Shown here one piece after another: positions 59-28,587 of a stretch of DNA of 63,070 bases. This DNA is from Mycetohabitans rhizoxinica HKI 454 (lineage in GTDB: Bacteria; Pseudomonadota; Gammaproteobacteria; Burkholderiales; Burkholderiaceae): positions 273,770-336,839 of the forward strand of contig NC_014722.1 of assembly GCF_000198775.1 (NCBI RefSeq). The letters are read 5' to 3'. The number at the start of each line of letters is the position of its first letter. Within the stretch, counting starts at the first letter, position 1. A program made the position numbers and the translations under genes. A model generated the notes under the pieces. It saw nothing but the letters and a program-made list of their open reading frames with translations, did not search any database and was not told the DNA's origin.

Positions 59-2943
<2,885 letters not shown>

Positions 2944-3043
2944 TATAACTGGTCCGTTTTACCGTTGTGCCACCCCCCACTCCTACCCATTGCTTCCTAT
3001 TCCAGATTGGCTGGCGCGCCCCGTGCGCGACAGCACCCCCTTT
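2944..3043 (+). other. 23S-5S spacer with trailing arm of the processing stem
   Basis: About 100 nt separate the 23S and 5S genes and contain no tRNA. The left half (2942-2971) pairs with the sequence preceding the 23S gene (see 1-58). The right half is C-rich and unremarkable. Confidence 0.75.
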
Positions 3044-3160
3044 TGCCTGATGACCATAGCGAGTCGGTCCCACCCCTGCCCATCCCGAACAGGACCGTGA
3101 AACGACTCCACGCCGATGATAGTGCGGATTGCCCGTGTGAAAGTAGGTAATCGTCAGGCT
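3044..3160 (+). rRNA. rrf: 5S ribosomal RNA
   Basis: 5S rRNA of about 117 nt. It starts TGCCTGATGACCATAGCGAG and ends in the complementary TAATCGTCAGGCT. The conserved loop CCATCCCGAACAGG-like core is at about 3077-3092. It closes the rRNA operon together with the hairpin that follows. Confidence 0.97.
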
Positions 3161-5152: not shown

Positions 5153-8100
5153 ATGCGGATTTCTGATGCAACGCCAGTAATAGTTTATGGCGCTCCGTTC
5201 GCTCATCGCTCCAATTACCTCAGGTTCGCTTTATCAAGGACGTTGTGTGCGCTCGGAGTTGTTACCGCATTGCTGATTTCCGACGTCGCGAGGTCAGCCA
5301 CAGTCGAGTCCGGTACGCAAGATACGCTGATGGGCGAAGTCGCCTCGCACAATGAAGGTTCGAGCCAGCCCAAAGGGCGGAAAACGCGTTGGGATGTGAA
5401 GCCGCCCGGTATGCAAGATGATATGTCGGTAGACGAAGGCGCGCCGCATGATAAGGGGTCGAGCGAGCCTAAGGCGCGGAGAGCCTCGCGTTGGGATGTG
5501 AAGCCGCCCGGTATGCAAGATGATATGTCGGTAGACGAAGGCGCGCCGCATGATAAGGGGTCGAGCGAGCCTAAGGCGCGGAGAGCCTCGCGCTGGGATG
5601 TGAAGCCGCCCGATATGCAAGATGATATGTCGGTAGACGAAGGCGCGCCGCATGGTAAGGGGTCGAGCGAGCCTAAGGCGCGGAGAGCCTCGCGCTGGGA
5701 TGTGAAGCCGCCCGGTATGCAAGATGATATGTCGGTAGACGAAGGCGCGCCGCATGGTAAGGGGTCGAGCGAGCCTAAGGCGCGGAGAGCCTCGCGTTGG
5801 GATGTGAAGCCGCCCGGTATGCAAGATGATATGTCGGTAGACGAAGGCGCGCCGCATGATAAGGGGTCGAGCGAGCCTAAGGCGCGGAGAGCCTCGCGCT
5901 GGGATGTAAAGCCGCCCGATATGCAAGATGATATGTCGGTAGACGAAGGCGCGCCGCATGGTAAGGGGTCGAGCGAGCTTAAGGCGCGGAGAGCCTCGCG
6001 CTGGGATGTAAAGCCGCCCGGTATGCAAGATGATATGTCGGTAGGCGAAAGCATGCCGCATGGTAAGGGGGCGATCCCGTCTAAGGTGCGGGAAACATCG
6101 CGTTGGGATGTGAAGCCGTCCGATAAGCAAGATAAGCGGATAGACAAAGTCGCGCCGCATGATAAGGGGCCGAGCCAGCCCAAGGGGCGAAAAACGCGCT
6201 GGGATGTGAAGCCGCCCGGTATGCAAGATGATATGTCGGTAGACGAAGGCGCGCCGCATGGTAAGGGGTCGAGCGAGCCTAAGGCACGGAGAGCCTCGCG
6301 TTGGGATGTGAAGCCGCCCGGTATGCAAGATGATATGTCGGTAGACGAAGGCGCGCCGCATGATAAGGGGTCGAGCGAGCCTAAGGCGCGGAGAGCCTCG
6401 CGCTGGGATGTGAAGCCGCCCGATATGCAAGATGATATGTCGGTAGACGAAGGCGCGCCGCATGGTAAGGGGACGATCCCGTCTAAGGTGCGGGAAACAT
6501 CGCGTTGGGATGTGAAGCCGTCCGATAAGCAAGATACGCGGATAGACAAAGTCGCGCCGCATGATAAGGGGTCGAGCGAGCTTAAGGCGCGGAGAGCCTC
6601 GCGCTGGGATGTAAAGCCGCCCGGTATGCAAGATGATATGTCGGTAGATGAAGGCGCGCCGCATGGTAAGGGGGCGATCCCGTCTAAGGTGCGGGAAACA
6701 TCGCGTTGGGATGTGAAACCGTCCGATATGCAAGATAAGCTGGCTCCGAAGCGGAAACAGCGTCCGGACGTGACGGATGGAAAACCAACGGAGGTTGGCG
6801 TACGAAGAGAAAAACGGATGCGCGAGCGGTCCCATTCGGTCCCAATATTTTTGCCAAGTGAGTCTTCACCAAGCGAGGTAGACCGTTTTTCGAAAAGAAT
6901 CCGACAGGCCGATGAATCACTATTTGTCATAGCTCCCCAAAAAGACAGGGGGGAGTCCGGCGACTCGCAGAAGGACACGGCTAATCAAATCGACACGGGG
7001 AGATTGCACCCACCGGTTACGGGAAAAGGCTATACCGACGGCAGTATTGCGTCGTTACCTAGCGTGCAAGGAGCTAACCGGATACGCCAGAGATCTCGGT
7101 CGCTATCAGCATTATCGCCAGAGCAGGAACAACGCCGTTTGCAAGTTGATACGCCGCTGTTCATTCTTTCGCCCTCGCCCGATGGCGGTGACGGGGATTG
7201 GAATAGCTTGCAACAGATTAGGTTGCACGAGCCGGCCTGGGCTCAGTCTGCGGTTTCTGGTGTGCCGCCGACCAATACGCACGATATGCTGATAGACGAA
7301 ACCGCATCACACGATCAGGGTTCGAGGCAGCCCAAGGTGCGGGAATCGCGATTAGATGTGAAGCCGTCCACGCCCGTGTCCGATACGGAAAATACGCTGG
7401 TTTCAAAAGGGAAGTGGAAACAGCAACTGGACGTGACGCCTGAAACACCAATGGAGGTTGGTGTACAAAGAAAAAAACGGATGCGCGAGCGGTCCCATTC
7501 GGTCCCAATATTTTTGCCAAGTGAGTCTTCGCCAAGCGAGGCAGACCGTTTTTCGAAAAGAATCCGACAGGCCGATGAATCACTATTTGTCATAGCTCCC
7601 CAAAAAGGCAGTGGGAAGTCCGGCGATTCGCAGAAGGGCACCGCTGATCAAATTGACACGGGGAGATTGCGCCCATCGCTTAAACAACCACAGTTCGGTG
7701 ACATTACGGGAAAGGCTACTACCGACAGCGGCATTGCGCTGGTACCTGGCAAGGGAGCTAACCGGACGCGCCAGAGGTCTCAGTCGCTACCAGTATTATC
7801 GCCAGGGCTGGAACAACGCCGTTTGCAAGTTGATACGCCGCTGTTCGTTCTTTCGCCCTCGCCCGATGGCGGTGACGGGGATTGGGATGGCTTACAACAG
7901 ATTAGGTCGCCCGAACCGGCTTGGCCTCAGTCTGTGTTTTCCAATGTACCGCCGACCGGTGCGGCATTGACATACGAAAGTACTGTCGCCGTTCCTCCCG
8001 AAACCACATTTCCCATCTTGCTGCCTATCCCACCAGGACAGACCGTTACAAGTGTGACCGCTACCACGCCGACTGCTGACTCTGGCATAGATAGCAACGT

Positions 8101-10783
8101 GGTGGGTAGCGAGGCTGTTGTATTGCGTGACGCAGGTGGCAATACGCACACGTCGATCCTGGGAACCAGTGGGTCCATCCCCGAGAATGGGACAAGGACT
8201 GACACGGCTATGGTCATCCCGTCGAACTCAAGAAGCAAAGAACAGGGGACGTTGACTGAATCTGATGGTGTGAAACCGTATGATGTGGATAAGTACGACG
8301 ACGAATGGCAAAGTGACTCAGCCCCGTCAACGGAGATGAAGGTTGCGCAGGCGGGTGAGCCGAGTAAACCGCCGGTCCAACAGGAGCGGCAAACCGGTCA
8401 TAATGCGAGCGCCAGAATCTCGGCGACACACTCGGCATCGCGCCGAAGTAGCGCATCGACTACGAGCGATGCCGGCACCAGTATCGACGGTAGGTCAACA
8501 CAGTCTGCTGGCGAGAGTAGCAATCAGCTCCCGATCCAGACACTGGGGGCCAACGCGTCCCCTACTTTGCAGCAGACGACAGTGGCTGACAAGGTGCTAG
8601 ACGCTGCGCCGGGCAACAGGGGAAGATCCAAATCGGCAGTGTTGTCGCAGCCTCAGGTGGCTAAGCGGGTGCGATCCAGCAGTGAAGACCGACTCAGACC
8701 GGGCGGCTTGGATGCGGCAGGCTTGGAGCATGGTATCTGGCAAAGCGGCCCGGCCCCATCTAAAGAGATGAAGGTGACGCAAGTGAGCGAAGCGCCGGCT
8801 TCGCAGGTGAGTGAAGCGTCGGCTCAACGGGAATGGGCCACCGGCTACGATGCAAGCGCCACCATATCGGTGGAACACCCGGCATCGCGCCGAGGTAGCG
8901 CATCGACTGCGAGCGATGCTGGCACCAGTATCGACGGTAGGTCAACACAGTCTGCTGGCGAGAGCAGCAATCAGCTCTTGGCCCAGACACTGGAGGCCAA
9001 CGCGTCCCCTACCTTGCAGCAGACGACAGTGGCTGACAAAGTGCTAGACGCTGCGCCGGGCAACAGGGGAAGATCCAAATCGGCAATGTTGTTGCAGCCT
9101 CAGGTGGCTAAGCGGGTGCGATCCAGCAGTGAAGACCGACTCAGATCGGGCGGCTTGGATGCGGCAGGCTTGGAGCATGGTATCTGGCAAAGCGGCCCAG
9201 CCCCATCTAAGGAGATGAAGGTTGCGCAGGTGAGCGAAGCGCCGGCTTCGCAGGTGAGTGAAACGTCGGCTCAACAGGAATGGGCCACCGGCTACGATGC
9301 AAGCGCCACCATATCGGTGGAACACCCGGCATCGCGCCGAGGTAGCGCATCGACTGCGAGCGATGCTGGCACCAGTATCGACGGTAGGTCAACACAGTCC
9401 GCTGGCGAGAGCAGCAATCAGCTCCCGCCCCAGACACTGGAAGCCTCCCCTACCTTGCAGCAGACGACAGTGGCTGACAAGGTGCTAGACGCTGCGCCGG
9501 GCAACAGGGGAAGATCCAAATCGGCAGTGTTGTCGCAGCCTCAGGTGGCTAAGCGGGTGCGATCCAGCAGTGAAGACCGACTCGGATTGGGCGGCTTGGA
9601 TGCGGCAGGCTTGGAGCATGGTATCTGGCAAAGCGGCCCAGCCCCGTCTAAGGAGATGAAGGTTGCGCAAGTGAACGAAGCGCCGGCTTTGCAGGTGAGT
9701 GAAGCGTCGGTTCAACAGGAATGGGCCACCGGCTACAATGCGAGCGCTACCATGTCGGCGGCACACTCGGCATCGCGCCGAGGTAGCGCGTCAACTACGA
9801 GCACTATCAATAGCATGATGGCAGACGAGCGCGAGCGCACACTGCCGTTGCCACCGACCGAGAGTGCAGGCGCGAATCGGTCCCTCAACTCTGACCTGCC
9901 TTCTGCCGTGGAGCAAAAGCCAAGCGGCATGAAATCGGCTGTGATGACACTAACAACGGCTATCCTGGACGGCGATGGACGCCCGCGTCCGACTGAACAA
10001 ACGTCGCCGGCACGGGCCGCACTCACGAATCCGGAGAAATCGGATGGTACGAATGCTTTGGCTGCGTATGCTGACCAAAGGAATGCCGACAACTTGGAAG
10101 GGAATGCCGGTGTAGATCCGCTTTCGGTCGGTCAAGCCGATTTAATGTCGAAGACGGGTAAGGAAAAGCCGGCTCAAGCAGGTGAGAACATCCCCGAACC
10201 GGTTGCTAGCAGTTCCTCAAATGTTCCGAGTAGAGGGCAAACCGATCAAGAACAAAACTCTGAGCCGACAGAAATGACGTCCTTGACACGGCCCGGTCCA
10301 AGTATGGCGGCCGCTACGCCACGTGACGCCGCTCCCGAGCAAGACATGCGTCATGGGTGGCTGCGCAAGGCGATCGCGGCAGAGCTGCCGTCGGTCATGA
10401 ACGAGCAACTTGGTATTAGCGTGGACGAAGCCCACATATCGGTCGGCACGCCTGGCCACGAGCGCAAGATCACGCATGTCGCACGCGGCACTGCACCGAC
10501 CGATGCAGTCAACAAAGCTCAGTTGGACGAAGCCGTCGCGCGTGTCGATCGCGACGCGTCAGCAGGCATTGCAGCGGCAATGGCAGTGGCGGGATTGCCA
10601 CAACCGACGTTGCCCGGAAAGAGTCTGGCGACGTTTGCGGGTGCGACGTACCGCGGCCAGTATGGCGCTGCGCTTGGCATATCGCACATCACACCGAATA
10701 ATCGTTGGGTTTTCAAGCTGGCCGCAAACGCGAACGGTCGCGGTTATTTTGGCGCCGCTGTATCGGGAGGCTTTCAATGGTGA
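5153..10783 (+). CDS. Giant repeat-rich YadA-type (trimeric autotransporter-like) surface protein with ULM-like repeats
   Basis: Predicted secreted, outer-membrane-anchored protein of 1876 residues. Residues 1-49 form a long signal peptide (basic/polar start, hydrophobic TLCALGVVTALLI, likely cleavage after VARSA). Residues 79-525 hold fourteen starts of a roughly 34-residue repeat centred on SRWDVKPPGM. Residues about 530-940 hold two copies of a 221-residue unit with RERSHSVP and DTPLFxLSPSPDGG. Residues about 1095-1545 hold three full and one partial copy of a 149-residue unit. A low-complexity Ser/Thr/Pro region follows. From residue 1773 comes ITHVARGTAPTDAVNKAQL, the classic YadA stalk/neck motif, then about 75 residues of alternating beta segments ending in FQW, the type Vc anchor. 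No YadA-type head repeats are recognised and the passenger looks disordered. The anchor is well supported; trimer formation and export are inferred from the family. The ribosome-binding site is weak (AAGAGA). No host-interaction function is proven. Confidence 0.88.
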   Translation: MRISDATPVIVYGAPFAHRSNYLRFALSRTLCALGVVTALLISDVARSATVESGTQDTLMGEVASHNEGSSQPKGRKTRWDVKPPGMQDDMSVDEGAPHDKGSSEPKARRASRWDVKPPGMQDDMSVDEGAPHDKGSSEPKARRASRWDVKPPDMQDDMSVDEGAPHGKGSSEPKARRASRWDVKPPGMQDDMSVDEGAPHGKGSSEPKARRASRWDVKPPGMQDDMSVDEGAPHDKGSSEPKARRASRWDVKPPDMQDDMSVDEGAPHGKGSSELKARRASRWDVKPPGMQDDMSVGESMPHGKGAIPSKVRETSRWDVKPSDKQDKRIDKVAPHDKGPSQPKGRKTRWDVKPPGMQDDMSVDEGAPHGKGSSEPKARRASRWDVKPPGMQDDMSVDEGAPHDKGSSEPKARRASRWDVKPPDMQDDMSVDEGAPHGKGTIPSKVRETSRWDVKPSDKQDTRIDKVAPHDKGSSELKARRASRWDVKPPGMQDDMSVDEGAPHGKGAIPSKVRETSRWDVKPSDMQDKLAPKRKQRPDVTDGKPTEVGVRREKRMRERSHSVPIFLPSESSPSEVDRFSKRIRQADESLFVIAPQKDRGESGDSQKDTANQIDTGRLHPPVTGKGYTDGSIASLPSVQGANRIRQRSRSLSALSPEQEQRRLQVDTPLFILSPSPDGGDGDWNSLQQIRLHEPAWAQSAVSGVPPTNTHDMLIDETASHDQGSRQPKVRESRLDVKPSTPVSDTENTLVSKGKWKQQLDVTPETPMEVGVQRKKRMRERSHSVPIFLPSESSPSEADRFSKRIRQADESLFVIAPQKGSGKSGDSQKGTADQIDTGRLRPSLKQPQFGDITGKATTDSGIALVPGKGANRTRQRSQSLPVLSPGLEQRRLQVDTPLFVLSPSPDGGDGDWDGLQQIRSPEPAWPQSVFSNVPPTGAALTYESTVAVPPETTFPILLPIPPGQTVTSVTATTPTADSGIDSNVVGSEAVVLRDAGGNTHTSILGTSGSIPENGTRTDTAMVIPSNSRSKEQGTLTESDGVKPYDVDKYDDEWQSDSAPSTEMKVAQAGEPSKPPVQQERQTGHNASARISATHSASRRSSASTTSDAGTSIDGRSTQSAGESSNQLPIQTLGANASPTLQQTTVADKVLDAAPGNRGRSKSAVLSQPQVAKRVRSSSEDRLRPGGLDAAGLEHGIWQSGPAPSKEMKVTQVSEAPASQVSEASAQREWATGYDASATISVEHPASRRGSASTASDAGTSIDGRSTQSAGESSNQLLAQTLEANASPTLQQTTVADKVLDAAPGNRGRSKSAMLLQPQVAKRVRSSSEDRLRSGGLDAAGLEHGIWQSGPAPSKEMKVAQVSEAPASQVSETSAQQEWATGYDASATISVEHPASRRGSASTASDAGTSIDGRSTQSAGESSNQLPPQTLEASPTLQQTTVADKVLDAAPGNRGRSKSAVLSQPQVAKRVRSSSEDRLGLGGLDAAGLEHGIWQSGPAPSKEMKVAQVNEAPALQVSEASVQQEWATGYNASATMSAAHSASRRGSASTTSTINSMMADERERTLPLPPTESAGANRSLNSDLPSAVEQKPSGMKSAVMTLTTAILDGDGRPRPTEQTSPARAALTNPEKSDGTNALAAYADQRNADNLEGNAGVDPLSVGQADLMSKTGKEKPAQAGENIPEPVASSSSNVPSRGQTDQEQNSEPTEMTSLTRPGPSMAAATPRDAAPEQDMRHGWLRKAIAAELPSVMNEQLGISVDEAHISVGTPGHERKITHVARGTAPTDAVNKAQLDEAVARVDRDASAGIAAAMAVAGLPQPTLPGKSLATFAGATYRGQYGAALGISHITPNNRWVFKLAANANGRGYFGAAVSGGFQW
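5387..6730 (+). repeat. 102-bp coding tandem repeat array (ULM-like RWDVKP units)
   Basis: Fourteen starts of a 102-bp unit (96 bp in two variant copies) encode variants of SRWDVKPPGMQDDMSVDEGA. The first TGG of the motif is at 5390 and the next at 5492, so the period is exactly 102 bp. Neighbouring units are almost identical in DNA, and variants alternate: PPG or PPD after WDVK, PHDKG or PHGKG, and two diverged types ending AIPSKVRETS or with PSDKQD. The higher-order order of variants repeats (PKGRKT-RWD at 5382 and 6190), so whole blocks have been duplicated as well as single units. A decayed fifteenth copy (SRLDVKPS, Trp replaced by Leu) sits at about 7345-7365. Confidence 0.95.
6744..7965 (+). 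repeat. 663-bp two-copy coding repeat (RSHSVP / DTPLF unit)
   Basis: Two copies spaced 663 bp apart (matching ATGs at 6818 and 7481) encode the same 221-residue plan: VGVxRxKRMRERSHSVP, a Phe/Ile-rich stretch SESLFVIAPQK-like, then RQRSxSL, RRLQVDTPLF and a SPSPDGGDGDW segment. The DNA between matching points is nearly identical over long stretches, which indicates recent duplication. Between the copies lies the decayed RLDVKPS unit of the upstream array. Confidence 0.9.
8440..9790 (+). repeat. 447-bp coding tandem repeat array (149-residue unit)
   Basis: Three full copies and the start of a fourth of a 149-residue unit containing SIDGRSTQSAGESSNQL, VADKVLDAAPGNRGRSKSA, KRVRSSSEDRL and GLDAAGLEHGIWQSGPAP. 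Matching points fall at 8453, 8900, 9347 and 9788, so two periods are 447 bp and the third is 441 bp because two codons are missing. Copies are nearly identical in DNA. Basic-Ser clusters (RGRSKS, KRVRSSS, RRGSAS) recur in every unit. Confidence 0.93.
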
Positions 10784-14454: not shown

Positions 14455-15084
14455 ATGTTGCTCGACGAGTTGATCGGGGAGTTTGACCGTGGCTTGCGCT
14501 CAATCACAGGGGTAGCCAGAATGAGTCGGCCGGTGCCGCAGCCCGATGTAGTGGCCGACGACAGTGAAATGACGGTGGCCGAGCAAAGTCATGCGGCGGC
14601 GCTGATGCGGGTGAACCATGTGGGCGAAGTGTGCGCGCAGGCGCTGTATCAGGCGCAGAAGCTGGCAACCCGCTCCGAGCGGCTGAAGCAAGCGTTCGAG
14701 CGGGCTGCGCGCGAGGAGGAGGACCACTTGGCGTGGACCGCGCATCGGTTGCGCGAACTGGACTCGCGGCCGAGCTTGCTCAATCCGCTGTGGTACGCTG
14801 GCTCGCTTGCCATCGGCTTTGTCGCCGGCCGGTTTGGCGATCGCGTCAGTCTTGGCTTCATGGCTGAAACGGAGCGCCAGGTTGAGCAGCATCTGGATGG
14901 CCATCTGGACCGGCTGCCGGCGGGCGACCACGCGTCACGCGCGATTGTCATGCAGATGCGCACGGATGAGATGGCGCATGCGCGCGCCGCGTCGGACGCC
15001 GGCGGCGTGGAGCTTGCCGCCCCGGTGACCGCACTGATGCGCATGGCCGCGCGCGTGATGACCCGTACTGCGTACTATATCTAG
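14455..15084 (+). CDS. coq7: 2-polyprenyl-3-methyl-6-methoxy-1,4-benzoquinone monooxygenase (demethoxyubiquinone hydroxylase)
   Basis: Carries out the last hydroxylation of the ubiquinone ring, a di-iron, O2-dependent step at the inner membrane. The 209 residues contain the ligands expected of the ferritin-like Coq7 fold: the [13 protein letters not shown] helix, the [14 protein letters not shown] helix with the ExxH motif, and the DEMAHARAA helix with the second ExxH. Length is normal for the bacterial family. AAAGGAG lies at good distance before the ATG. Monocistronic, transcribed away from the porin. Confidence 0.95.
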
Positions 15085-15446
15085 CACCATCGCAAGCGCT
15101 ACCTCGGTCTGCTAGGCGTGGGACCAGCCGCAGGCGTCGCCTCTCCAATGCCGATCGGGTTGACACGGTGCGACTGCCGGCGATCCGATCGCGTCGGCGC
15201 TGCGGGCTACCGGGTCAACTCGCCCGACCCGGCGTGGCGCCGCTATCGTGTCGCAAAAATGACCCTCTGCCGACCCGCGAATCCCGCAGTGCAGCGAAAA
15301 AATTGCCGAATCCTCACATATTACTTTTAAAAGCGCAGACAATCCCTTCATTTGGTTGAAAAATCCTTATTGGAACCCGCTTTAACGGGGCGCGCTAAGT
15401 CTTTGTTCTATCAAATGAATTCGCGTGAACAACCGCAGTTGCGCCC
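15085..15446. other. Intergenic region before the dcw cluster
   Basis: About 360 bp with no convincing gene; in-frame openings on the plus strand (up to 70 codons) lack ribosome-binding sites and similarity. I see no clear terminator for coq7. The AT-richer part at 15295-15420 may hold additional promoter elements for the cluster. Confidence 0.5.
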
Positions 15447-15475
15447 TTGACCCCTGCCGGGCGTTCCTCTAAAGT
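15447..15475 (+). promoter_or_regulatory. Sigma-70 promoter of the dcw cluster (Pmra)
   Basis: TTGACC at 15447-15452 and TAAAGT at 15470-15475 are separated by exactly 17 nt, 109 nt before the mraZ start. The -10 element runs straight into the MraZ operator repeats, as expected for the autoregulated mra promoter. Confidence 0.75.
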
Positions 15476-15508
15476 GGGGGCCAGTGTGAAAAAGTGTATT
15501 TTTGTGTG
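15474..15508 (+). promoter_or_regulatory. MraZ operator: four GTG(G/T) repeats with 10-bp spacing
   Basis: GTGG at 15474 and GTGT at 15484, 15494 and 15504 recur with an exact 10-bp period, each preceded by a triplet of mostly A or T (AAA, CCA, AAA, TTT). This matches the known MraZ target: direct repeats of GTGG/GTGT-type boxes one helical turn apart. It overlaps the -10 element and the likely start site, so MraZ binding would repress its own operon. Confidence 0.85.
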
Positions 15509-15583
15509 CTATCCACACGGCTAGGGCGATGATGTGGGTTCGGAGGGCATGCGCGGCGCATGCCGGTGACAGGGAGATGGCAC

Positions 15584-16012
15584 GTGTTTCAGGGGGCGTC
15601 GGCGCTAACGCTGGATGCGAAGGGCCGGATGTCGGTGCCCTCGCGTTATCGGCAAGTGCTGTTAGGACAGGCGCAGGGCCGGGTAACCATCACCAAGCAC
15701 CCGGACGGCTGCCTGTTGCTGTTTCCACAGCCCGAGTGGGAGGCGTTCCGTAACAAGATTGCCGCGTTGCCGATGGATGCGCACTGGTGGCGACGGATCT
15801 TCCTCGGTAATGCGTCGGACGTCGAGATGGATTCGGCGGGCCGGGTGCTCGTCTCGCCCGAATTGCGCACCGCTGCAAACCTGGAGCGTGAAGTGATGTT
15901 GCTCGGCATGGGCAGCCACTTCGAATTGTGGGATGCGCAAACGTATGCCGCGAAGGAGCAGGCCGCGATGGCGCAAGGCATGCCCGACGCACTGAAAAAC
16001 TTTACTTTCTGA
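15584..16012 (+). CDS. mraZ: Transcriptional regulator MraZ
   Basis: First gene of the division/cell-wall cluster; a DNA-binding ring-forming protein with two SpoVT/AbrB-like half-domains that represses its own promoter. I start at GTG 15584, giving [21 protein letters not shown] with AGGGAGA seven nt upstream and 142 residues, the family norm; the ATG at 15560 would add eight residues not shared by the family. Both conserved DxxGR elements are present: [14 protein letters not shown] in the first half and [14 protein letters not shown] in the second. Followed 14 nt later by rsmH. Confidence 0.95.
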
Positions 16013-16026
16013 TTGCGGAGCATCGA

Positions 16027-16980
16027 ATGGCATCCGCGATGGAAAAGCCGGGACAGCATCGCACGGTGCTGCTGGACGAAGCGGTCGATGCGCTGATTAC
16101 GCGCGCCGATGGAATCTATGTCGATGGCACATTTGGCCGGGGCGGTCATAGTCGCGCGGTGCTCGCGCGGCTTGCGCCTGCCGCCCGATTAATTGCGTTC
16201 GACAAAGACCCACAGGCGATCGAGGTGGCGCGCGGGATCGCCGATCCACGGCTGAATGTTGTGCATGGCAGCTTCGCGCAACTGCGCGACGTGCTGGCTG
16301 CGCGTGGCGGTGTGCGCGTATCGGGCGTATTGCTGGATCTGGGCGTGTCGTCGCCGCAAATCGACGATCCGGCGCGAGGTTTCAGCTTTCGCCACGATGG
16401 CCCACTGGATATGCGCATGGATCCGACGCGCGGCGAGTCCGCCGCACAATGGCTCGCGCATGTGGACGAGCGGGAATTGATAGAGGTGATACGGGATTAT
16501 GGGGAAGAACGGTTTGCTGTTCAGATTGCAAAGGCGATTGTTGCTCGCCGGGCAGAATCCGGGCGTCTTGGGCCTATCGTGCGCACACGCGAGCTTGCCG
16601 AGATCGTGGCTCGCGCCGTCAAGACCCGCGAGAAGGGCCAGGACCCGGCCACTCGCACCTTTCAAGCTATACGGATTCACATCAATCAAGAGCTTGCGGA
16701 GTTGCCGGTAGTTCTTGAAACTGCATTGGAGTCGTTGGAGCAGGGAGGCCGGTTGGTGGTCATCAGCTTTCATTCGCTAGAAGACCGCATCGTCAAGCGA
16801 TTTTTTCAATCGCACGCGCGCGCGCCGGCCGTAGACCGGCGCCTGCCGATTCGCGCGGCGGACTTGCCCAGTCCGCCGTTGCGCATTCTTGGGCGTGTCT
16901 TTGCTGGCGAAGCGGAAGTGGCGGCCAACCCGCGTGCCCGTTCCGCCGTGATGCGCATCGCCGAGCGGGTGCTTGCATGA
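16027..16980 (+). CDS. rsmH: 16S rRNA (cytosine(1402)-N4)-methyltransferase
   Basis: SAM-dependent methylation of C1402 in the decoding centre of 16S rRNA (formerly mraW). The 317 residues begin [23 protein letters not shown], with the SAM-binding [14 protein letters not shown] loop near residue 40, [20 protein letters not shown] and the [21 protein letters not shown] block (here [20 protein letters not shown]). A GGAG-type site precedes the ATG at 16027. Its stop overlaps the ftsL start (ATGA). Confidence 0.97.
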
Positions 16981-17336
16981 GCCGGCTCAACATTTTCCTG
17001 CTCCTCGTTGTGTTGGGCTGCGCGCTGTCGGTCGTCAATGCGACGAACCGGCAGCGCGAGGTGTTCATCGATCTTCAGCGCGCTCAGTCGCAAGAGCATC
17101 AGCTACAGTTGGACTATGCGCAGTTGCAATACCAGCAAGGCGCATTGTCGAAGACCTCGCGCATCGAGCGTATGGCCACTGCCGACCTGAAAATGCAGCC
17201 GGTGGTGCCGGGGCGTACCCAGTATCTGAGCGTTGACCCGGCGAGCGTGCCGGCCGATACGCCGCCGGCCAGCGACGCGGGGGCCGGCGCATCTGGCTCC
17301 GCGTCGCCGGGCACTACGGCGGGAGCGGCCCGATGA
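16977..17336 (+). CDS. ftsL: Cell division protein FtsL
   Basis: Small bitopic septal protein that bridges FtsQ/FtsB to FtsWI. The 119 residues have a single N-terminal membrane segment ([16 protein letters not shown]), then a leucine-zipper-like coiled coil [21 protein letters not shown] and a Pro/Ala/Gly-rich tail from about residue 85. Overlaps rsmH and ftsI by four bases at each end, so it is probably translated by coupling. Confidence 0.93.
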
Positions 17337-19123
17337 AGCGCTCAACTCATCACCGTCGTCATGTACCGTTCTCATCGAGCCCGGTGCTGTCGGTGCACTT
17401 GCCGATGTGGCGCTCCAAGCTCATCGTGTTTTTGCTGTTCGTCGCGTTCGTCGCACTGGCGGCGCGTGCATTCTGGATCCAGGGACCGGGCAACGCGTTT
17501 TATCAAAAGCAGGGCGAAAGCCGCTACCAGCGCACCATTGAGTTGCCGGCCACGCGCGGCAAGATTCTAGATCGCAACGGGCTGGTGTTGGCCACCAGCT
17601 TGCCAGTGCGCGCGATTTGGGCCATTCCCGAATCGGTGCCCAACGATCTGGGTGCCGGCAAGCTGGCGGAGCTCTCGAAGCTGTTATCGATGGGTGAGAA
17701 GGCGCTGCGCGCAAAGTTGTCGCAGGACAAGACGTTCGTCTACGTGAAGCGGCAAGTGCCGCTGGATGTCGCGCAGAAAGTGGCCGCACTGGACATCCCC
17801 GGCATCTACGCGCGTCCTGAATACAAGCGTTTTTATCCGGAAGGCGAGATCACCGCGCACATGATCGGCTTCACCAACGTCGAGGACGAGGGGCAGGAAG
17901 GCATCGAGCTGGCGGACCAGAAGGCGTTGGCCGGCGTGCCGGGCAGCCGCCGCGTGATCAAGGACCGGATCGGGCACATCGTCGAGGATGTCGACGAGTG
18001 GGTCAAGCCGCGCGATGGGCAGGACATTGCGTTGTCGCTGGACAGCAAGATCCAGTACATCGCGTACGCTAACCTGAAGGCGGCGGTCGACCGGTTCAAA
18101 GCGAAGGCTGGCGCGGCAATCGTCATCGACGTGAAGACGGGCGAGGTGCTCGCGCTGGTCAACTATCCGACGTACAACCCGAATAACCGTTCGCACCTGA
18201 CCGGCGAGCAGTTGCGCAATCGTGTGCTGACCGACGTGTTTGAGCCTGGCTCGATTATGAAGCCGTTTACCGTATCGCTCGCGCTGGATCTGCACCGCGT
18301 GTTGCCCACGACGTTGGTCGATACCGGCGGGGGCCGCTTCACATTGGATGGCGCGACGATCACAGACGACGCCGGCTTTGGCGTGTTGACCGTTGGCGGC
18401 GTTATTCAGAAGTCCAGCAACATCGGCGCGACAAAGATTGCGATGCAGTTGCGGCCCGAGGAAATGTGGAATATGTATACGAGCATCGGACTAGGCCAGG
18501 CGCCGAAGGTCGGCTTCCCTGGTGCGGCGGCTGGACGGTTGCGCCCTTGGAAGAGCTGGCGTCGCATCGAGCAGGCGACGATGTCGTATGGCTACGGCTT
18601 GTCCGCGTCGCTGTTCCAGCTTGGTCGGGCCTATACCGCGATCGCGCATGATGGCCGCATCATTCCGCTCACGCTGATCAGGGGCAACAACGGCGATGAG
18701 CCGCAAGGCACGCAGGTGTTCTCGGCCACCACGGCGCGGCAGGTTCGCGCGATGCTGGAATCCGTCACGCAGCCGGGCGGTACATCGCCCGACGCGGCGG
18801 TGCCGGGCTACCGCGTCGGCGGCAAGAGCGGCACCGCATATAAGCACGTGGGACGCGGCTACGATCGCGGTAAGTATCGGGCGTCGTTCGTCGGCATGGC
18901 GCCGATGCCGAATCCGCGCATCGTGGTGGCAGTGTCGGTCGATGAGCCGACAGCGGGCAGTCACTTCGGCGGACAGGTCTCCGGTCCGGTCTTCTCGGCG
19001 ATTGCCGGCGACACGCTGCGCTCGCTGAATGTGCCGCCCGACATGCCGGTCAAGCAGCTCGTGGTCAGCGACGACGCTAAGTCCATCATCAATGTGAGCG
19101 CGACGCAGAGGACCGTGCGATGA
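17333..19123 (+). CDS. ftsI: Peptidoglycan D,D-transpeptidase FtsI (PBP3)
   Basis: Septum-specific class B penicillin-binding protein that cross-links peptidoglycan together with FtsW. The 596 residues have a short basic N terminus, one membrane helix (LIVFLLFVAFVALAARAFWIQ), a PBP dimerisation domain with the RGKILDRNG motif, and the transpeptidase domain. The active-site triad is complete: Ser307-x-x-Lys310 (SIMK), Ser361-x-Asn363 (SSN) and Lys498-Ser-Gly-Thr501. Overlaps ftsL and murE by ATGA. Confidence 0.98.
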   Translation: MKRSTHHRRHVPFSSSPVLSVHLPMWRSKLIVFLLFVAFVALAARAFWIQGPGNAFYQKQGESRYQRTIELPATRGKILDRNGLVLATSLPVRAIWAIPESVPNDLGAGKLAELSKLLSMGEKALRAKLSQDKTFVYVKRQVPLDVAQKVAALDIPGIYARPEYKRFYPEGEITAHMIGFTNVEDEGQEGIELADQKALAGVPGSRRVIKDRIGHIVEDVDEWVKPRDGQDIALSLDSKIQYIAYANLKAAVDRFKAKAGAAIVIDVKTGEVLALVNYPTYNPNNRSHLTGEQLRNRVLTDVFEPGSIMKPFTVSLALDLHRVLPTTLVDTGGGRFTLDGATITDDAGFGVLTVGGVIQKSSNIGATKIAMQLRPEEMWNMYTSIGLGQAPKVGFPGAAAGRLRPWKSWRRIEQATMSYGYGLSASLFQLGRAYTAIAHDGRIIPLTLIRGNNGDEPQGTQVFSATTARQVRAMLESVTQPGGTSPDAAVPGYRVGGKSGTAYKHVGRGYDRGKYRASFVGMAPMPNPRIVVAVSVDEPTAGSHFGGQVSGPVFSAIAGDTLRSLNVPPDMPVKQLVVSDDAKSIINVSATQRTVR

Positions 19124-20652
19124 GTCGCTCGCCACTGACGCCCGAACAAATCGAGCGCGTGCGGGCCGAGGTGCTCGCGTGGCTGCGCGCTCGGCTTGCG
19201 CCGCATGCGCAATTGCGGGTGGACAGCCGCGCGGTGTGCGCTGGCGACGCGTTCGTCGCGTATGCGGTGGACAGCGCAGACAGTCGTGCGTATATCGCCG
19301 ATGCGTTGCAGCGTGGCGCGGCAGCCGTGCTGGTCCAGGCCGGCGGTGAGTTCCCGGGCGGCGGACCGGTGCTCCAGGTCCCTGAACTCGATCAGCTTGC
19401 GGGCCACATTGCTAGTGCGTGGTATGGCGAGCCGAGTCGCGACATGCTGATGGTCGGCATCACGGGCACCAATGGCAAGACCACCACCAGCCACTGGGTC
19501 GCGGGCGCGTTGAGCGGCAGTGGCACCCGTTGCGCGATCATCGGCACGTTGGGCACCGGACTGCCGGGGCAGCTTTCGCCCACCGGGTTCACGACCCCCG
19601 ACGCGCCGCAGGTGCACCACAGCCTGGCGGCGCTGCGTGCGCACGGCGCAAGCGCGGTATCGATGGAGGTGTCCTCGCACGCACTGCACCAGGGGCGCGT
19701 GAATGGCGTCGCGTTCGACATCGCGGTGTTCACTAACCTGACGCAGGACCATCTCGACTATCACAAGGACCTCGCGTCGTACGAGGCCGCCAAAGCGCGG
19801 CTGTTCGACTGGCCGGGCTTGCGCGCGGCAGTCATCAATCGCGACGACGAGGCCGGGCGCAGGCTGATCGGGCATCTGGCCACGCGGGTGCGCACGATTT
19901 CGTACGGTATCGCGTCGACTAGGCCGCGCGGCGACGCTTCGCTGCATGCGATGGCGATCCGCGCGACCGCCACCGGCACCGCCTTCACGGTGGTATCCGA
20001 CTGGGGGCACGCCGAGCTCGAAGTGGGCACGCTCGGCCTGTTCAATGTCGCCAATTTGCTCGCCGTCCTCGGCGTGCTACTGGCCGCCGACGTGCCATTC
20101 GATGCGGCGCTGTCTCAGATCACGCGGCTGGAACCGGTCAACGGTCGGATGCAGCAGCTCGGCGGGCGGCCGCAAGTGGACGAGCCGCTGGTGGTTGTCG
20201 ATTACGCGCATACGCCGGACGCATTGGAAAAAACGCTCGACGCACTGCGGCCGATCGCCACGCAGCGGGGCGGCAAGCTCGTCTGTGTGTTCGGCTGTGG
20301 GGGCGAGCGCGATGCGACCAAGCGGCCGCTGATGGGGGCGATTGCCGAGCGGCTCGCCGACAGCGTCATCGTGACGAGTGACAACCCGCGTAGCGAGCCG
20401 CCGCTGGCAATCATCGGCCAAATCGTCAGTGCGATGCGTGAGCCGGCACGCGTGCGCACCATCGAGGATCGCGCTGGCGCGATCCTGCAGGCGGTGCGTG
20501 GTGCGTCGGCCGCCGACGTCGTGCTGATCGCCGGCAAGGGACATGAGGCAACACAGGAAGTGATGGGTAAGAAGCGGCCGTTTTCGGATCAGGATCATGC
20601 ACACCTCGCGCTCGCATCGCGCGTCACGCAACCTCGCGGAGAAGCTGAATGA
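19120..20652 (+). CDS. murE: UDP-N-acetylmuramoyl-L-alanyl-D-glutamate--2,6-diaminopimelate ligase
   Basis: Adds meso-diaminopimelate to UDP-MurNAc-L-Ala-D-Glu in the cytoplasm. The 510 residues show the Mur ligase ATP loop GTNGKTT with Lys120, the carbamylated-lysine region, and DNPR at 421-424, which marks specificity for diaminopimelate rather than lysine. Overlaps ftsI and murF by four bases. Confidence 0.98.
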   Translation: MSRSPLTPEQIERVRAEVLAWLRARLAPHAQLRVDSRAVCAGDAFVAYAVDSADSRAYIADALQRGAAAVLVQAGGEFPGGGPVLQVPELDQLAGHIASAWYGEPSRDMLMVGITGTNGKTTTSHWVAGALSGSGTRCAIIGTLGTGLPGQLSPTGFTTPDAPQVHHSLAALRAHGASAVSMEVSSHALHQGRVNGVAFDIAVFTNLTQDHLDYHKDLASYEAAKARLFDWPGLRAAVINRDDEAGRRLIGHLATRVRTISYGIASTRPRGDASLHAMAIRATATGTAFTVVSDWGHAELEVGTLGLFNVANLLAVLGVLLAADVPFDAALSQITRLEPVNGRMQQLGGRPQVDEPLVVVDYAHTPDALEKTLDALRPIATQRGGKLVCVFGCGGERDATKRPLMGAIAERLADSVIVTSDNPRSEPPLAIIGQIVSAMREPARVRTIEDRAGAILQAVRGASAADVVLIAGKGHEATQEVMGKKRPFSDQDHAHLALASRVTQPRGEAE

Positions 20653-22079
20653 CGATGTTGACGCTGCGCGAGGCGGCTGCATTGATCGACGGTGCCACGG
20701 TTTTGGGCGACGATACGGTCGCTTTCGATCAAGTCTCGACCGACAGTCGCAGTTGCGGGCCGGCAAGCCTGTTCGTCGCGCTCAAGGGCGAGCGTTTCGA
20801 CGCGCACGATTTCCTGCCGGATCTCGCGCGGCGCGGCGTGGCTGCTGTATTGGTGTCGCGCAGCCCCGGTGACTGGCGTGTGCCGGCGATCCGCGTGGCC
20901 GACACGCGGGCCGCGCTTGGCGCGCTCGCGGCTGGCTGGCGTCGCAGGTTTGCGTTGCCGCTGGTCGCGGTGACCGGTAGTAACGGCAAGACCACGGTCA
21001 AGGAAATGATCGCGTCGATCTTTGCCGCCGCCGTCGGTCACGCGCAGCGGCTCTCGACGCAGGGCAACTTAAACAACGTCATCGGCATGCCGCTCACGTT
21101 GTTGCAGCTCGCGCCACAGCATCGGCTCGCGGTCGTCGAGCTTGGCATGAACCGTCCTGGCGAAACGCAACAGCTAGCCCGGATTGCCGGACCCACCATT
21201 GCGCTGGTGAACAATGCCCAGCGCGAGCATCAGGAATTTATGGCGACAGTCGAGGCCGTGGCGCTGGAGCATGCGAGTGTGATCCATGCGCTGCCGCCGG
21301 ACGGCACGGCGGTGTTTCCCGCCGACGATCCGTATGCTGGCATCTGGCGGGTGGCGGCCACCGACAACCGGATCGTGGACTTCGCGCTGCGCCGGCCCGG
21401 GGCCAATAGCGATGCGGCGGTCCAGGGCACGACCACGGACACCGGCGCATTGCGGATCGAGACGCGCGCCGGCGCACTTGAGGTATCGTTGCGCGCGCCC
21501 GGCGAGCACAATGCGCGCAATGCGCTCGCCGCCACCGCGGCCGCGCTTGCCGCCGGCGTCGGACTGGACGCGATACGGCGCGGGCTCGAGACCTTCGAGC
21601 CGGTCAATGGACGGTTGCAGGCCAAGCTCGCCCAAGCGATGCCATGGGCCGGCGCGACGGTGATCGACGATACCTATAATGCCAATCCGGATTCGATGCG
21701 CGCGGCGATCGACGTATTGACCATGCGTCAGGCGCCGCGCGTGTTGGTGATGGGCGACATGGGAGAGGTTGGCGACAACGGCCCCGCGTTTCATCGCGAA
21801 GTCGGCGCCTATGCGCGCGAACGCGGGCTCGATGCACTGTACGCGCTCGGTGACGCGAGTCGCGATGCGTGCACCGCGTTCGGCCCGCATGCCCATCATT
21901 TCGATTCAGCCGAGGCACTCATTTGCGCGCTGCTCCGCCAGGACGCCGTCGCATCGGAGCGCGCCGCCGGCGCGACGATCTTGGTCAAGGGTTCGCGTTT
22001 CATGCGCATGGAGCGCGTGGTCCAGGCTTTGACCCTCCCCACTGCAACCGATGCGCCGGCCCGGACCGGCGCGCATTGA
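20649..22079 (+). CDS. murF: UDP-N-acetylmuramoyl-tripeptide--D-alanyl-D-alanine ligase
   Basis: Joins D-Ala-D-Ala to the UDP-MurNAc-tripeptide, the last cytoplasmic step of the stem peptide. The 476 residues contain [13 protein letters not shown] as the ATP loop, the ELGMNRPGE segment typical of MurF, and [11 protein letters not shown] in the C-terminal domain. Substrate made by DdlB, whose gene lies further down the same cluster. Overlaps murE by ATGA; mraY starts 11 nt after it. Confidence 0.97.
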
Positions 22080-22090
22080 AAGGACCTCGA

Positions 22091-23260
22091 ATGCTATTGG
22101 CGCTGGCGCAATGGCTGCAAAGCGATGCAAGCTATTTGCGCGTGATCAACTATCTGACGTTTCGTGCGGTGATGGCGACCATCACCGCGCTGTTGATCGG
22201 CCTTATCTGCGGCCCCGCGGTGATTCACAAGCTCACCGCGCTGAAGATGGGGCAGGCCGTGCGCAAGGACGGACCGCAGACGCATTTGATCAAGTCCGGC
22301 ACGCCGACGATGGGCGGCGTGCTGATCCTGATTGGCATTGCCGTGTCGACGCTGTTGTGGAGCGATCTGACCAATCGCTTCATCTGGATCGTGATGCTGG
22401 TCACCTTCGGTTTCGGCGTGATTGGCTGGGTCGACGATTATCGCAAGGTCGTCTACAAGGACCCGCGCGGCATGTCCTCGCGCGAAAAGTACTTCTGGCA
22501 ATCGGTGATCGGGTTATTCGCCGCCGTGTACCTCGCGTTCTCGGTATCCGAGGCGAATAACGCGCGTGTGTTCGATCTGTTCATGGCGTGGGTGCGCAGC
22601 GGGTTCTCAATCGGTTTGCCGGCGCGTGCTGATCTGGCCCTGCCGTTCCTGAAAGCGATCAGCTATCCGCTCGGCGTCTGGGGATTCATTGCGTTGACCT
22701 ATTTCGTGATCGTCGGCTCGAGTAACGCGGTGAACTTGACCGACGGGCTGGACGGACTGGTGATCATGCCGGTCGTGCTGGTCGGGGCAGCGCTCGGCGT
22801 GTTCGCGTATGTGATGGGCAGCGCTGTCTATTCGAAGTACCTGCTGTTTGCGCATATTCCCGGCGCGGGTGAGTTACTGATCTTCTGCTCGGCGATGGGC
22901 GGCGCGGGACTCGCGTTCCTTTGGTACAACACGTACCCCGCGCGGGTATTCATGGGGGATGTTGGCGCGCTCGCGCTTGGTGGCGCGCTGGGCACGATCG
23001 CGGTGATCGTGCGGCAGGAAATCGTGCTGTTCATCATGGGCGGCGTGTTTGTCGCCGAGACTGTCTCGGTGATGTTGCAAGTCACGTGGTTCCGCTACAC
23101 GAAGCGCCGCTATGGTGAGGGCCGGCGCATCTTCAAGATGGCACCGTTGCACCACCATTTTGAGTTGTCCGGATGGAAGGAGACCCAGGTGGTAGTGCGC
23201 TTCTGGATCATCACGCTGATGCTGTGCCTATTTGGTCTGTCCACGCTGAAATTACGGTAA
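22091..23260 (+). CDS. mraY: Phospho-N-acetylmuramoyl-pentapeptide-transferase
   Basis: Integral inner-membrane enzyme that transfers phospho-MurNAc-pentapeptide to undecaprenyl phosphate, making lipid I. The 389-residue protein has about ten membrane helices and the family motifs KxGTPTMGG ([13 protein letters not shown]), NLTDGLDGL with catalytic Asp, and the HHHFE cluster ([11 protein letters not shown]). The ATG at 22091 is chosen because it gives the conserved MLLALAQWL start with AGGACC upstream; the frame is open much further upstream within murF. Confidence 0.98.
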
Positions 23261-23283
23261 CTGGAAACTGAGGAAACGAAACG

Positions 23284-24801
23284 ATGTTCGGTGAGAAGTT
23301 CGGAGAACGGCAACGCCCGACGACGCTCGTGCTGGGGCTCGGCGAATCGGGGCTGGCGATGGCGCGCTGGTGCGCGCGCCACGGTTGTCGTTTGCGCGTG
23401 GCCGATACCCGCGCCGCGCCGCCGAACCTGTCGCAATGGGCGGCGCTGGGCATCGACGCGGAATTCGTCGGCGGTGCGTTCAGTCCCGCGCTGCTCGATG
23501 GCGGTATCGAGTTAGTGGCCATCAGTCCCGGTTTGTCGCCGCTTGGTGCGGACCTGGCTGCACTGATTGGCGCGGCCCGCGAGCGCGGCATTGACGTGTG
23601 GGGCGAGCTAGAGTTCTTTGCGCAGGCGTTGCGCGCACTGGCTACTGACGGTTACCAGCCCAAGGTGCTGGCGGTCACGGGCACGAACGGCAAGACGACG
23701 ACCACGGCGCTCACCGGGTTACTGTGCGAGCGGGCCGGCAGGAGCGTCGCGGTGGCCGGCAACATCAGTCCGGCCATGCTGGACAAGCTGGCCGAGGCCA
23801 TCGACGCGGCGAAGCTGCCTGACGTCTGGGTGTTGGAGCTGTCTAGCTTCCAACTCGAGACATCGCACACGTTCGAACCTGATGCAGCTGTCATCCTCAA
23901 CATCACGCAGGACCATTTGGACTGGCATGGCGGACTGGACGCCTATGCTGCTGCAAAGGGGCGGATCTTCGGGCTGCGTACGCTGCGCGTATTGAACCGC
24001 GATGATGCGCGCGTGATGGCATGCGTGCCGGCCGGCGATGCCATTGCGCCGTATTGGACCTTTGGACTCAACGTGCCGCAGAACGATGGCGACTACGGTA
24101 TCCAACGCGATGGCGGCATCGCATGGCTGCTCCAGGCACATGAGCGCAACGACGCATCCGAACAACGCGCGATGCATCGCCGTCGCAAGAGTGGTGGGCT
24201 CGCGCCCGATATCGCGCTTAAGCGGCTCATGCCTGTCGATGCCCTGCGCATTCGCGGCTTGCATAACGCGACCAATGCGATGGCCGCGCTTGCGCTGGCA
24301 CAGTCGATTGGCCTGCCGCTCGCCGCGTTGCTGCACGGCTTGCGCGAGTACCGCGGCGAGCCGCATCGCGTCGAGTGGATTGGATCGATCGACGGCGTCG
24401 ACTATATCGATGACAGCAAAGGTACCAACGTCGGCGCGACCGTGGCCGCGCTCGACGGCCTCGCGCAGCGGATCGTATTAATCGCGGGCGGTGACGGCAA
24501 GGGCCAGGATTTTGCGCCGCTTGCGGCGCCAGTGGCGCGCTGGTGCCGGGCTGTGATGCTGATCGGCCGCGATGCGCCGGCGCTGCGCGCGGCACTGGCC
24601 GATACCGGCGTCGAATTGGCTCTGCATCCGAGCCTGCAGGCGGCGACGCGTGCCGCGGCAGCCGTCGCCCAGCCCGGGGATGCGGTGCTGCTGTCTCCCG
24701 CGTGCGCAAGCCTGGACATGTTTTCCGGATATGCGCAGCGCGCGCAGGTGTTCCGCAGCGAGATCGAGGACATCGCTGCCGATAAGGGAGGGGTGCTATG
24801 A
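23284..24801 (+). CDS. murD: UDP-N-acetylmuramoylalanine--D-glutamate ligase
   Basis: Adds D-glutamate to UDP-MurNAc-L-Ala. 505 residues with the N-terminal Rossmann-like UDP domain ([13 protein letters not shown]), ATP loop [13 protein letters not shown], and [11 protein letters not shown] stretch around residues 285-315 (basic and Ser/Arg-rich) is an insertion relative to the E. coli enzyme, which explains the longer protein. Overlaps ftsW by ATGA. Confidence 0.97.
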
Positions 24802-26072
24802 GCCGGGCGCAGCGGATCGCAGCAAGGCTCGCTGGGTGCCGCTACGCAGTGCCTAGCGACGGAGTCGGCGCCGCCACCCCGGCACGCGGCGTGGGGCTGG
24901 CGAGTGCGGTCAGCGGCATTCGCCCGTTGCGCTCACGCATGCGTGACTATGACCACTCGCTGCTCTGGGTGACGATCGCGCTGTTGTCGCTCGGACTCGT
25001 GATGGTGTATTCAGCGTCGATCGCGCTGCCCGACTCGCCCAAGTACTCGGCCTATACGCCATACCATTTCCTCGTGCGGCACGTTGTGTCGCTCGTGACC
25101 GGTGTGCTCTGCGCGCTGGTGGCGTTTCGTATTCCGGTCAAGACTTGGGACAAGTACGCGCCGCGTTTCTTTCTTGTCGCGTTGCTGTTGCTGGTGATCG
25201 TGCTGATACCTCACCTGGGCAAGGGCGTGAACGGCGCGCGCCGGTGGATCCCACTGGGCATCACGAATATGCAGCCGTCGGAAATTATGAAGTTAGCGGT
25301 GACGATCTACGCGGCCAACTATACGGTCCGCAAACAGGAGTACATGCACCAGTTCACAAAGGGCTTCCTGCCGATGGCGCTCGCAGTCGGCGTAGTCGGC
25401 GCGCTGCTGCTGCTGGAGCCGGACATGGGCGCGTTCATGGTGATCGCGGCGATCGCGATGGGCGTGTTGTTCTTGGGCGGTGTGAGCGGGCGGCTGTTCG
25501 GCGGCCTGGCGCTGACCGCCATTGGCACGTTCGCCATGCTGGTCTGGGCCTCGCCGTGGCGTCGCGAGCGCATCTTTGCGTACCTGAATCCGTGGGACGA
25601 CCGCTATGCGCAAGGCAAGGCGTACCAGCTCACCCATTCGCTGATCGCATTCGGACGCGGCGAGTGGTTCGGAGTCGGCCTGGGCGGCAGCGTCGAGAAG
25701 CTCAACTATTTACCTGAGGCGCACACCGACTTCATTCTTGCGGTGATCGGGGAAGAGCTTGGCTTTGTCGGCGTGGTCTTCGTGATTTTGCTGTTTTATT
25801 GGATCGTGCGGCGCGCGTTCGAAATCGGCCGCCAGGCGCTCGCATTGGATCGCACGTTCGCCGGATTGGTCGCGAAAGGCATCGGCCTATGGGTCGGCGC
25901 GCAGACGTTCATCAACATGGGGGTGAACCTCGGCCTGCTGCCGACCAAGGGGTTGACGCTGCCGCTAGTCAGCTATGGCGGCTCTGGGATCTTGCTCAAC
26001 TGCGTGGCGCTGTCGCTGCTGATGCGCGTCGATTACGAGAACCGGGTGCTGATGCGCGGAGGCAAGGTATGA
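24798..26072 (+). CDS. ftsW: Septal peptidoglycan glycosyltransferase FtsW
   Basis: SEDS-family polymerase that extends glycan strands at the septum with FtsI. The 424 residues have a cytoplasmic N-terminal tail of about 50 residues and then ten predicted membrane helices. Conserved blocks include GARRWI, the [12 protein letters not shown] region, the loop with [20 protein letters not shown] and the final [14 protein letters not shown]. Start ATG overlaps the murD stop; the stop overlaps murG. Confidence 0.97.

Positions 26073-27195: not shown

Positions 27196-27199
<4 letters not shown>
26069..27199 (+). CDS. murG: UDP-N-acetylglucosamine--N-acetylmuramyl-(pentapeptide) pyrophosphoryl-undecaprenol GlcNAc transferase
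   Basis: Membrane-associated glycosyltransferase that turns lipid I into lipid II. The 376 residues start [21 protein letters not shown] with the glycine loop GGTGGH, followed by [32 protein letters not shown] and the UDP-GlcNAc site [13 protein letters not shown]. Overlaps ftsW (ATGA at 26069) and murC (27196). Confidence 0.97.

Positions 27200-28583
<1,384 letters not shown>

Positions 28584-28587
<4 letters not shown>

Follow-up and report, generated by a model that had tools for sequence, protein, structure and literature searches.

Tandem UHM-ligand-like motifs in the passenger of a YadA-like trimeric autotransporter of Mycetohabitans rhizoxinica

A gene of the endofungal bacterium Mycetohabitans (formerly Burkholderia) rhizoxinica HKI 454 encodes fourteen tandem peptides resembling the ligand motifs (ULMs) that are recognized by UHM domains of eukaryotic splicing factors, which raises the question of what such an array might do on a bacterial protein. 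It lies in the stretch of 63,070 nucleotides analysed here (the window, G000:C2:273770-336839). The genome totals 3,750,138 bases on three contigs, two of which measure 2,755,309 and 822,304 bases. On the sequence comparisons given below, the best reading is that the array is a ULM-like bait, multivalent and directed at UHM splicing factors of the host; we put its probability at about one half.

The gene product is, by its domains (Table 1), a YadA-like trimeric autotransporter (type Vc), with trimerization and surface display predicted. Pfam reports only YadA domains and no head domain in the 1876-residue protein, which also led us to reject a TAL-type repeat. The array forms the N-terminal end of the passenger, opposite the YadA anchor. 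The hydrophobic stretch of the putative export region, assigned by eye near residues 32-49, is similar in relatives; the start at 5153 is supported by similar N-termini in locus L025 and protein P0003. The database protein P0001 (1654 aa) has its start at an internal Met, residue 223 of the window protein, with which it is identical from there on; it thus lacks the putative export region and five units (window 5153-5819). Elsewhere in the genome, a 735-aa frame (L047) encodes the second complete YadA protein, and a short YadA-anchor frame of 127 aa (L048, G000:C1:719500-722500) is possibly the remnant of a third autotransporter. Two YadA proteins were named potential autotransporters in the 2011 genome paper (PMC3102044), the only publication retrieved with their locus tags. 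The surroundings are ordinary: 23S and 5S rRNA genes lie upstream (60-3159), and a COQ7-type gene and a cell-wall and division cluster (MraW-type methylase, penicillin-binding protein, Mur ligases, MraY-type protein) follow downstream (14455-28584).

Table 1. Features of the autotransporter gene, in positions of the window
Feature	Position	Strand	Basis or remark
YadA-like trimeric autotransporter gene, 1876 aa	5153..10783	+	single open frame; YadA stalk and anchor by Pfam
Putative N-terminal export region with hydrophobic ALGVVTALLISDVARSA	5153..5299	+	assigned by eye from sequence
ULM-like tandem array, 14 units of 32-34 aa, commonest form KGSSEPKARRASRWDVKPPGMQDDMSVDEGAPHD	5385..6736	+	core RWDVKP in 14/14; predicted disordered
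Module with RxRSxS motifs, two copies	6821..7786	+	RERSHSVP at 6821 and 7484; RQRSRSLS at 7085; RQRSQSLP at 7769
Relic of an additional unit, Leu for Trp (VRESRLDVKPS)	7319..7372	+	profile match, E 6.3e-5
149-aa (447-base) repeat, 3.1 copies, more RxRSxS (RGRSKS, RVRSSS)	8403..9802	+	
YadA-type coiled stalk	10466..10567	+	PF05662, E 1.2e-7, 32.4 bits (cut-off 28.4), residues 1772-1805
YadA-like membrane anchor	10598..10780	+	PF03895, E 2.5e-13, 50.3 bits (cut-off 22.7), residues 1816-1876

The tandem structure of the array is far beyond chance. An earlier note, written from the bare sequence, had counted fourteen copies, and RWDVKP indeed occurs fourteen times in one frame, with codon starts at 5387, 5489, 5591, 5693, 5795, 5897, 5999, 6101, 6197, 6299, 6401, 6503, 6602, and 6704, that is, every 32-34 residues. 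Tandem Repeats Finder delimits the same array with a period of 102, 13.3 copies, and 88% matches. The longer string SRWDVKPPGM, which the note had read in each unit, is exact in only 6 of 14, the others being TRWDVKPPGM (two units), SRWDVKPPDM (three), and RWDVKPSD (three). The retained element is RWD-x-[KT]-P; the PPG part varies within the window and is unseen in the unit lists of relatives. Searching the whole genome with a profile of the units yields 15 matches, all in this gene: the fourteen units and a relic outside the array (G000:C2:281088-281141). Among 200,000 composition-matched shuffles of one unit, SRWDVK appears in three and the lenient pattern [KR][KR]x0-3[KR]W[DENQ] in 745; as the copies are not independent, these figures describe one ancestral unit.

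Modelling predicts the array to be disordered, with a mean pLDDT of 40.5 and no secondary structure (shallow alignment of 5 rows); the following 512 residues reach 33.6 (6 rows, likewise shallow), and the confidence of both models is very low. In a charge-hydropathy comparison the array falls on the disordered side, and the middle region and the 149-aa repeats fall marginally on the ordered side. Its 480 residues comprise 87 basic and 90 acidic ones (fraction charged 0.37, net charge near zero), as might be expected of a polyampholyte spacer or condensate former in which basic (KARRASRW) and acidic (DDMSVDE) blocks build a flexible, self-associating brush with Arg-Trp stickers and no specific host partner. 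Such a brush would have no need for W-D-x-[KT]-P with a fixed proline, and most positions neighbouring the core change freely whereas the core does not, which makes this explanation quite improbable. The acidic second half of the unit is recognizable in different species (MQDDMSVDEG, LQDAPMDETA, MQDMSMDDAA) and may be a separate motif.

The array has a narrow distribution. The gene is present in four of eight genomes of the genus set, the other four being genomes of 1.1-1.2 Mb that, to judge by their size, could belong to insect symbionts related to Mycetohabitans; its absence there may simply reflect genome reduction. Across the family, the array occurs in 4 of 299 genomes, all within the genus. 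Its presence in relatives without eukaryotic hosts had been named as a finding that would speak against mimicry, and it is absent from the 291 family genomes outside the genus. A collection of 5.8 billion proteins, searched among candidates of similar length sharing exact words with the query, returned the same six proteins from 7,349 and from 7,989 scored candidates; all carry YadA domains, and the named ones are assigned to Mycetohabitans (three), Burkholderia sp. b14, and Burkholderiaceae. In the sets searched, the array is thus restricted to Mycetohabitans and to records bearing the latter two names. The plasmid collection gave no match, and neither did the genome contigs when searched for related loci with the passenger.

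Seven versions of the protein could be compared: that of the window, P0002 (B46), P0003 (b14), P0004, which equals G002 (endofungorum HKI456), G006 (B8), P0005, which differs from G007 by one mismatch in 2450, and P0006. The sequences of G002 and G006 are cut by a contig edge and start within the array, which makes their unit counts minima. Unit types differ among the versions (KARRASRWDVKPPGM, KERKTRWDVKPPDM, QKKPSRWDVKPADL, VRKESRWDKKPSDM, PRVTRWDVTPEQK, and AEAAWDKKPSDM) around a common core; hence, the array has turned over within lineages while the core stayed. In the arrays of L025 and P0005, a type without basic residues, AEAAWDKKP, makes up 6 of 17 units and alternates with basic units at spacings of 30-37-38, which would suit either a division of labour between two unit types or the decay of one of them.

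Which positions resist this turnover is the strongest argument for the likeness to ULMs. For units selected on WD only, in the four species for which DNA is available, amino-acid change between species is 0.00 at Pro(+4), against a synonymous value of 0.22, and 0.20 at Arg(-1), against 0.44; it is also 0.20 at position +3 and 0.33-0.92 at the 13 other positions (+8 0.33, -2 0.46, +2 0.52, the rest 0.63-0.92), all of these figures being descriptive and given without P values because units within a species are not independent. Choosing units by RWD[VKM][KT]P is partly circular; choice by WD or by W alone gives a weaker result with an unchanged ranking, and with W alone the five least-changed positions are again -1, 0, +1, +3, and +4. 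In reported UHM-ULM structures, Arg(-1) meets an acidic helix, the tryptophan meets the phenylalanine of the RXF motif, Asp(+1) meets a UHM arginine, and Lys-Pro or Thr-Pro at +3/+4 stacks on the X residue of RXF (PMC6633205, PMC2791216). The five least-changed positions of the array are therefore those of the reported UHM contacts.

The unit counts agree with this picture. In all seven proteins every array WD is followed by x-[KT]-P, and the WD spacing is 30-39 residues, so that no unit inside an array lacks this core; tryptophan without the aspartate occurs only as extra Trp between units (GWQ/DWQ in G006, VWK in P0006). A basic residue precedes the tryptophan in 76 of 83 units (one contig-edge unit dropped) and is accompanied by at least two further basic residues in 72; the seven units without it are of the AEAAWDKKP type and all belong to P0005 and P0006. 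In the window, the basic residue, the basic cluster, and the aspartate after the tryptophan are each found in 14 of 14 units. The tryptophan can nevertheless be lost, since a Leu-for-Trp relic (SRLDVK or SRLGMK) stands at or beyond the array end in four of the seven proteins (window, P0002, P0003, and G006), where G002, G007, and P0006 read SRWDVK.

Resemblance to the ULMs of U2AF65, SF1, and SF3b155 alike had been proposed in the earlier note. The comparisons support it for SF3B1-type sites only. A matrix built from the array scores yeast Hsh155 at 30.7 and ULM5 of SF3b155 at 25.5, both above all 518 control tryptophan peptides, which were drawn from long frames, some of them spurious, in the window and in 16 unrelated loci; the best-scoring controls are WDKKP repeats of L030, L033, and L037 (13.4). 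The ULM of SF1 scores in the noise (5.7, matched by 7 of 518 controls), as does that of ataxin-1 (7.8, matched by 4 of 518). U2AF65 was rejected as the model as well: its V-x-P-P-G is not conserved in the array. Within SF3B1, the ULM5-type site is the top tryptophan in all 118 records having one among the 120 examined (the best 120 of 4635 records, whose named members are animals, with a few unnamed and no fungus recognized), although these records are close relatives and do not amount to 118 independent tests; a slightly different array matrix places another N-terminal site on top in at least one record (P0126). N-terminal and HEAT-repeat tryptophans of SF3B1 are separated with an AUC of 0.963 (188 and 53 distinct peptides). 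In the opposite direction, a matrix from 82 distinct SF3B1 sites chosen by [KR]W[DE] ranks 17 of 19 distinct array cores above all 518 controls, two AEAAWDKKP-type cores falling inside the control range.

A search of 177,635 PDB sequences with the unit profile points the same way. Only four matches appear at E values up to 10; yeast HSH155 ranks fourth (E 1.9-2), below three viral RNA polymerase entries (RWTKKPSQMQ), which we take to be picornaviral. The HSH155 match is not significant by score. Its place is telling, if weakly so, as it covers residues 94/95-104, the functional ULM of the protein. A phmmer search of the array against the PDB gave no match. The strict ELM pattern [KR]{1,4}[KR]x{0,1}[KR]Wx{0,1} (PMC3415423) fits only 2 of the 14 units of the window; in B46 it fits 12 of 14, and in the five other proteins none, since the basic pair and the arginine are mostly separated by two residues. 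For this reason the array is called ULM-like rather than ULM. The authors of PMC3415423 state that bona fide SF3b155 ULMs escape the stringent pattern used in their search.

SF3B1/SF3b155 and Hsh155 share with the array the SRWD core and the arrangement of several motifs in one disordered N-terminal part. The stretch SRWDVK is identical to Hsh155 residues 99-104, with Lys at +3 as in most array units, and the Thr-Pro of SF3B1 at +3/+4 recurs in array units with RWDVTP, although the Thr of ULM5 at +3 stands against Lys in most units. The array differs in being bacterial and predicted to be surface-anchored, in its 14 regular copies, and in having mostly two residues, not one, between the basic pair and the arginine. 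The comparisons describe motif resemblance and do not imply common descent. For Hsh155 the motif is functional: Cus2 binds it with a Kd of 18-32 nM, and the two-hybrid signal is lost with R100D or W101A (PMC6633205). Known ULMs had so far been placed in unstructured regions (PMC2791216). According to the same source, the ULM region of ataxin-1 lies outside the core splicing factors and overlaps a basic cluster and a serine phospho-motif, which resembles the array; it is a single motif.

Similar peptides without the basic residue exist elsewhere. A DNA-pattern scan of genome contigs yields 18 stretches, two of them Mycetohabitans arrays; none of the 16 others holds a single-frame basic-Trp array, within a pattern that is blind to units with Thr at +3. 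Four of the 16 (L027, L030, L033, and L037) encode in-frame tandem WDxKP with Ser or Gly before the tryptophan (SSWDDKP, GGWDKKP, GSWDKKP), and a fifth (L036) has two WDNKP. The four tandem repeats lie on contigs of Saprospiraceae and other Bacteroidota.

These WDxKP repeats in unrelated bacteria could mean that the array belongs to a repeat adhesin whose Trp units bind a different ligand (glycan, chitin, or matrix) of the fungal wall or of bacteria, its likeness to ULMs being a short-motif coincidence. Fast-turnover tandem repeats are usual in autotransporter passengers, which also suits an adhesin, and the 2011 genome paper suggests surface proteins, the two YadA proteins among them, for attachment to fungal surfaces (PMC3102044). 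An adhesin is nonetheless unlikely, given that the array is predicted to be disordered, that Pfam finds no head domain, that conservation falls on the reported UHM contacts, Pro(+4) included, and that both matrix directions single out SF3B1-type sites. The Leu relics and the unrelated repeats leave the argument from contact positions standing, so the odds of a ULM-like bait are unchanged.

Downstream of the array, the passenger is rich in another motif. RxRSxS appears in the window protein (6821-9571) in four different contexts with 11 overlapping matches, and each context is present in all seven proteins. In a non-redundant passenger string of 795 residues it occurs 5 times against 0.05 expected, and none of 2000 shuffles has as many, for a motif that was chosen after looking at the sequence. 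RxRSxS would fit AGC-type kinase sites or SR-like motifs. Directly before the RW of SF1, Ser20 is listed as a PKG-I site (PMC10053845); by analogy, phosphorylation could regulate the binding of the units, 49 of 83 of which contain [KR][KR]x[ST]RW.

With these two motifs as its working parts, the passenger might alternatively be a phospho-motif decoy that acts on basophilic kinases or 14-3-3 proteins of the host as substrate or trap. In favour of this, the second YadA protein (L047) has no RxRSxS; RSxSxP, [RK][RK]x[ST], and [KR]W[DENQ] are absent from it as well. The kinase-like spacing before RW, however, fails in B46 (0 of 14) and in 34 of 83 units overall, and W-D-x-x-P is left unexplained. 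A 14-3-3 mode I motif was considered and rejected: RSxSxP is found 3-4 times per protein against 0.1-0.2 in shuffles, an enrichment that is gone after collapsing copies, the 795-residue string containing one (169 of 2000 shuffles have as many). The enrichment of [RK][RK]x[ST] is lost in the same way (1138 of 2000). As the sole function, such a decoy is very unlikely; it may hold in addition to other readings.

Taken as a ULM-like bait, the array could work as follows. The passenger of the trimeric autotransporter would form a long, apparently unfolded strand with the array far from the anchor, exposing 14 ULM-like peptides per chain, or 42 per trimer if the protein trimerizes, most of which read basic cluster, Ser/Thr, and Arg-Trp-Asp-x-Lys-Pro. 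Since the bacterium lives in the fungal cytosol, the displayed strand would meet newly made host proteins. The tryptophan of a unit might then dock into the pocket of a fungal UHM (of the Tat-SF1/Cus2, SPF45/PUF60, or U2AF type). Arg(-1) would lie against the acidic helix, Asp(+1) against the UHM arginine, and Lys-Pro or Thr-Pro against the RXF side chain. With many weak sites on a single strand, the passenger would become a high-avidity bait, retaining UHM splicing factors on the bacterial surface and thereby shifting host splicing.

The weak points of the bait lie in the nuclear location of its presumed targets, UHM proteins being mainly nuclear, in the tethering of the passenger, and in its putative export and expression. 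Contact of the passenger with the host cytosol, on which the earlier note had made mimicry depend, stands in part: the bacteria are reported to lie free in the cytosol of the fungus, not enclosed by a fungal membrane (PMC4166002, PMC3102044), while we infer display of the passenger there, as we do export, exposure, binding, and the effect on splicing. Candidate partners exist in fungi, as fission yeast has homologs of U2AF65 and U2AF35 and budding yeast Mud2 keeps a U2AF65-type UHM (PMC8624252). In a wider version, which is possible but doubtful, the whole passenger, surface-tethered or shed, would be an evolved decoy of eukaryotic motifs. It would imitate the SF3B1 N-terminus in layout, combine as many as 42 UHM-docking sites per trimer with the conserved RxRSxS phospho-type motifs, capture UHM splicing factors of the fungal host, and tune host splicing.

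Should the units indeed bind UHMs, a bacterial protein would be aiming at early spliceosome assembly with a copy of the assembly's own docking peptide, built for avidity. It would provide a concrete, testable route by which an endosymbiont controls fungal gene expression beyond TAL effectors, and natural multivalent UHM ligands could serve as tools. Titles and abstract openings among the literature matches listed mention neither a bacterial ULM nor such a function for this protein.

Among known systems, the protein shares with YadA-like trimeric autotransporter adhesins (type Vc) the stalk and anchor domains, a putative N-terminal export region, and a repeat-rich passenger, and differs from them by its motif-rich array, predicted to be disordered, and by the lack of a head domain in Pfam. 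The repeat length of the MTAL effectors is similar to that of the array unit. Like the proposed bait, these effectors are repeat proteins of this symbiont directed at the gene expression of the host; they are described as type III secretion associated and DNA-binding (PMC10746252), whereas the array protein has only YadA domains in Pfam. Listeria InlP, which engages the host splicing factor RBM5, differs as an LRR protein that is nuclear when expressed in host cells and acts via the OCRE domain, and its abstract names no ULM; as a bacterial protein engaging a host splicing factor, it is the nearest precedent found (PMC9763339).
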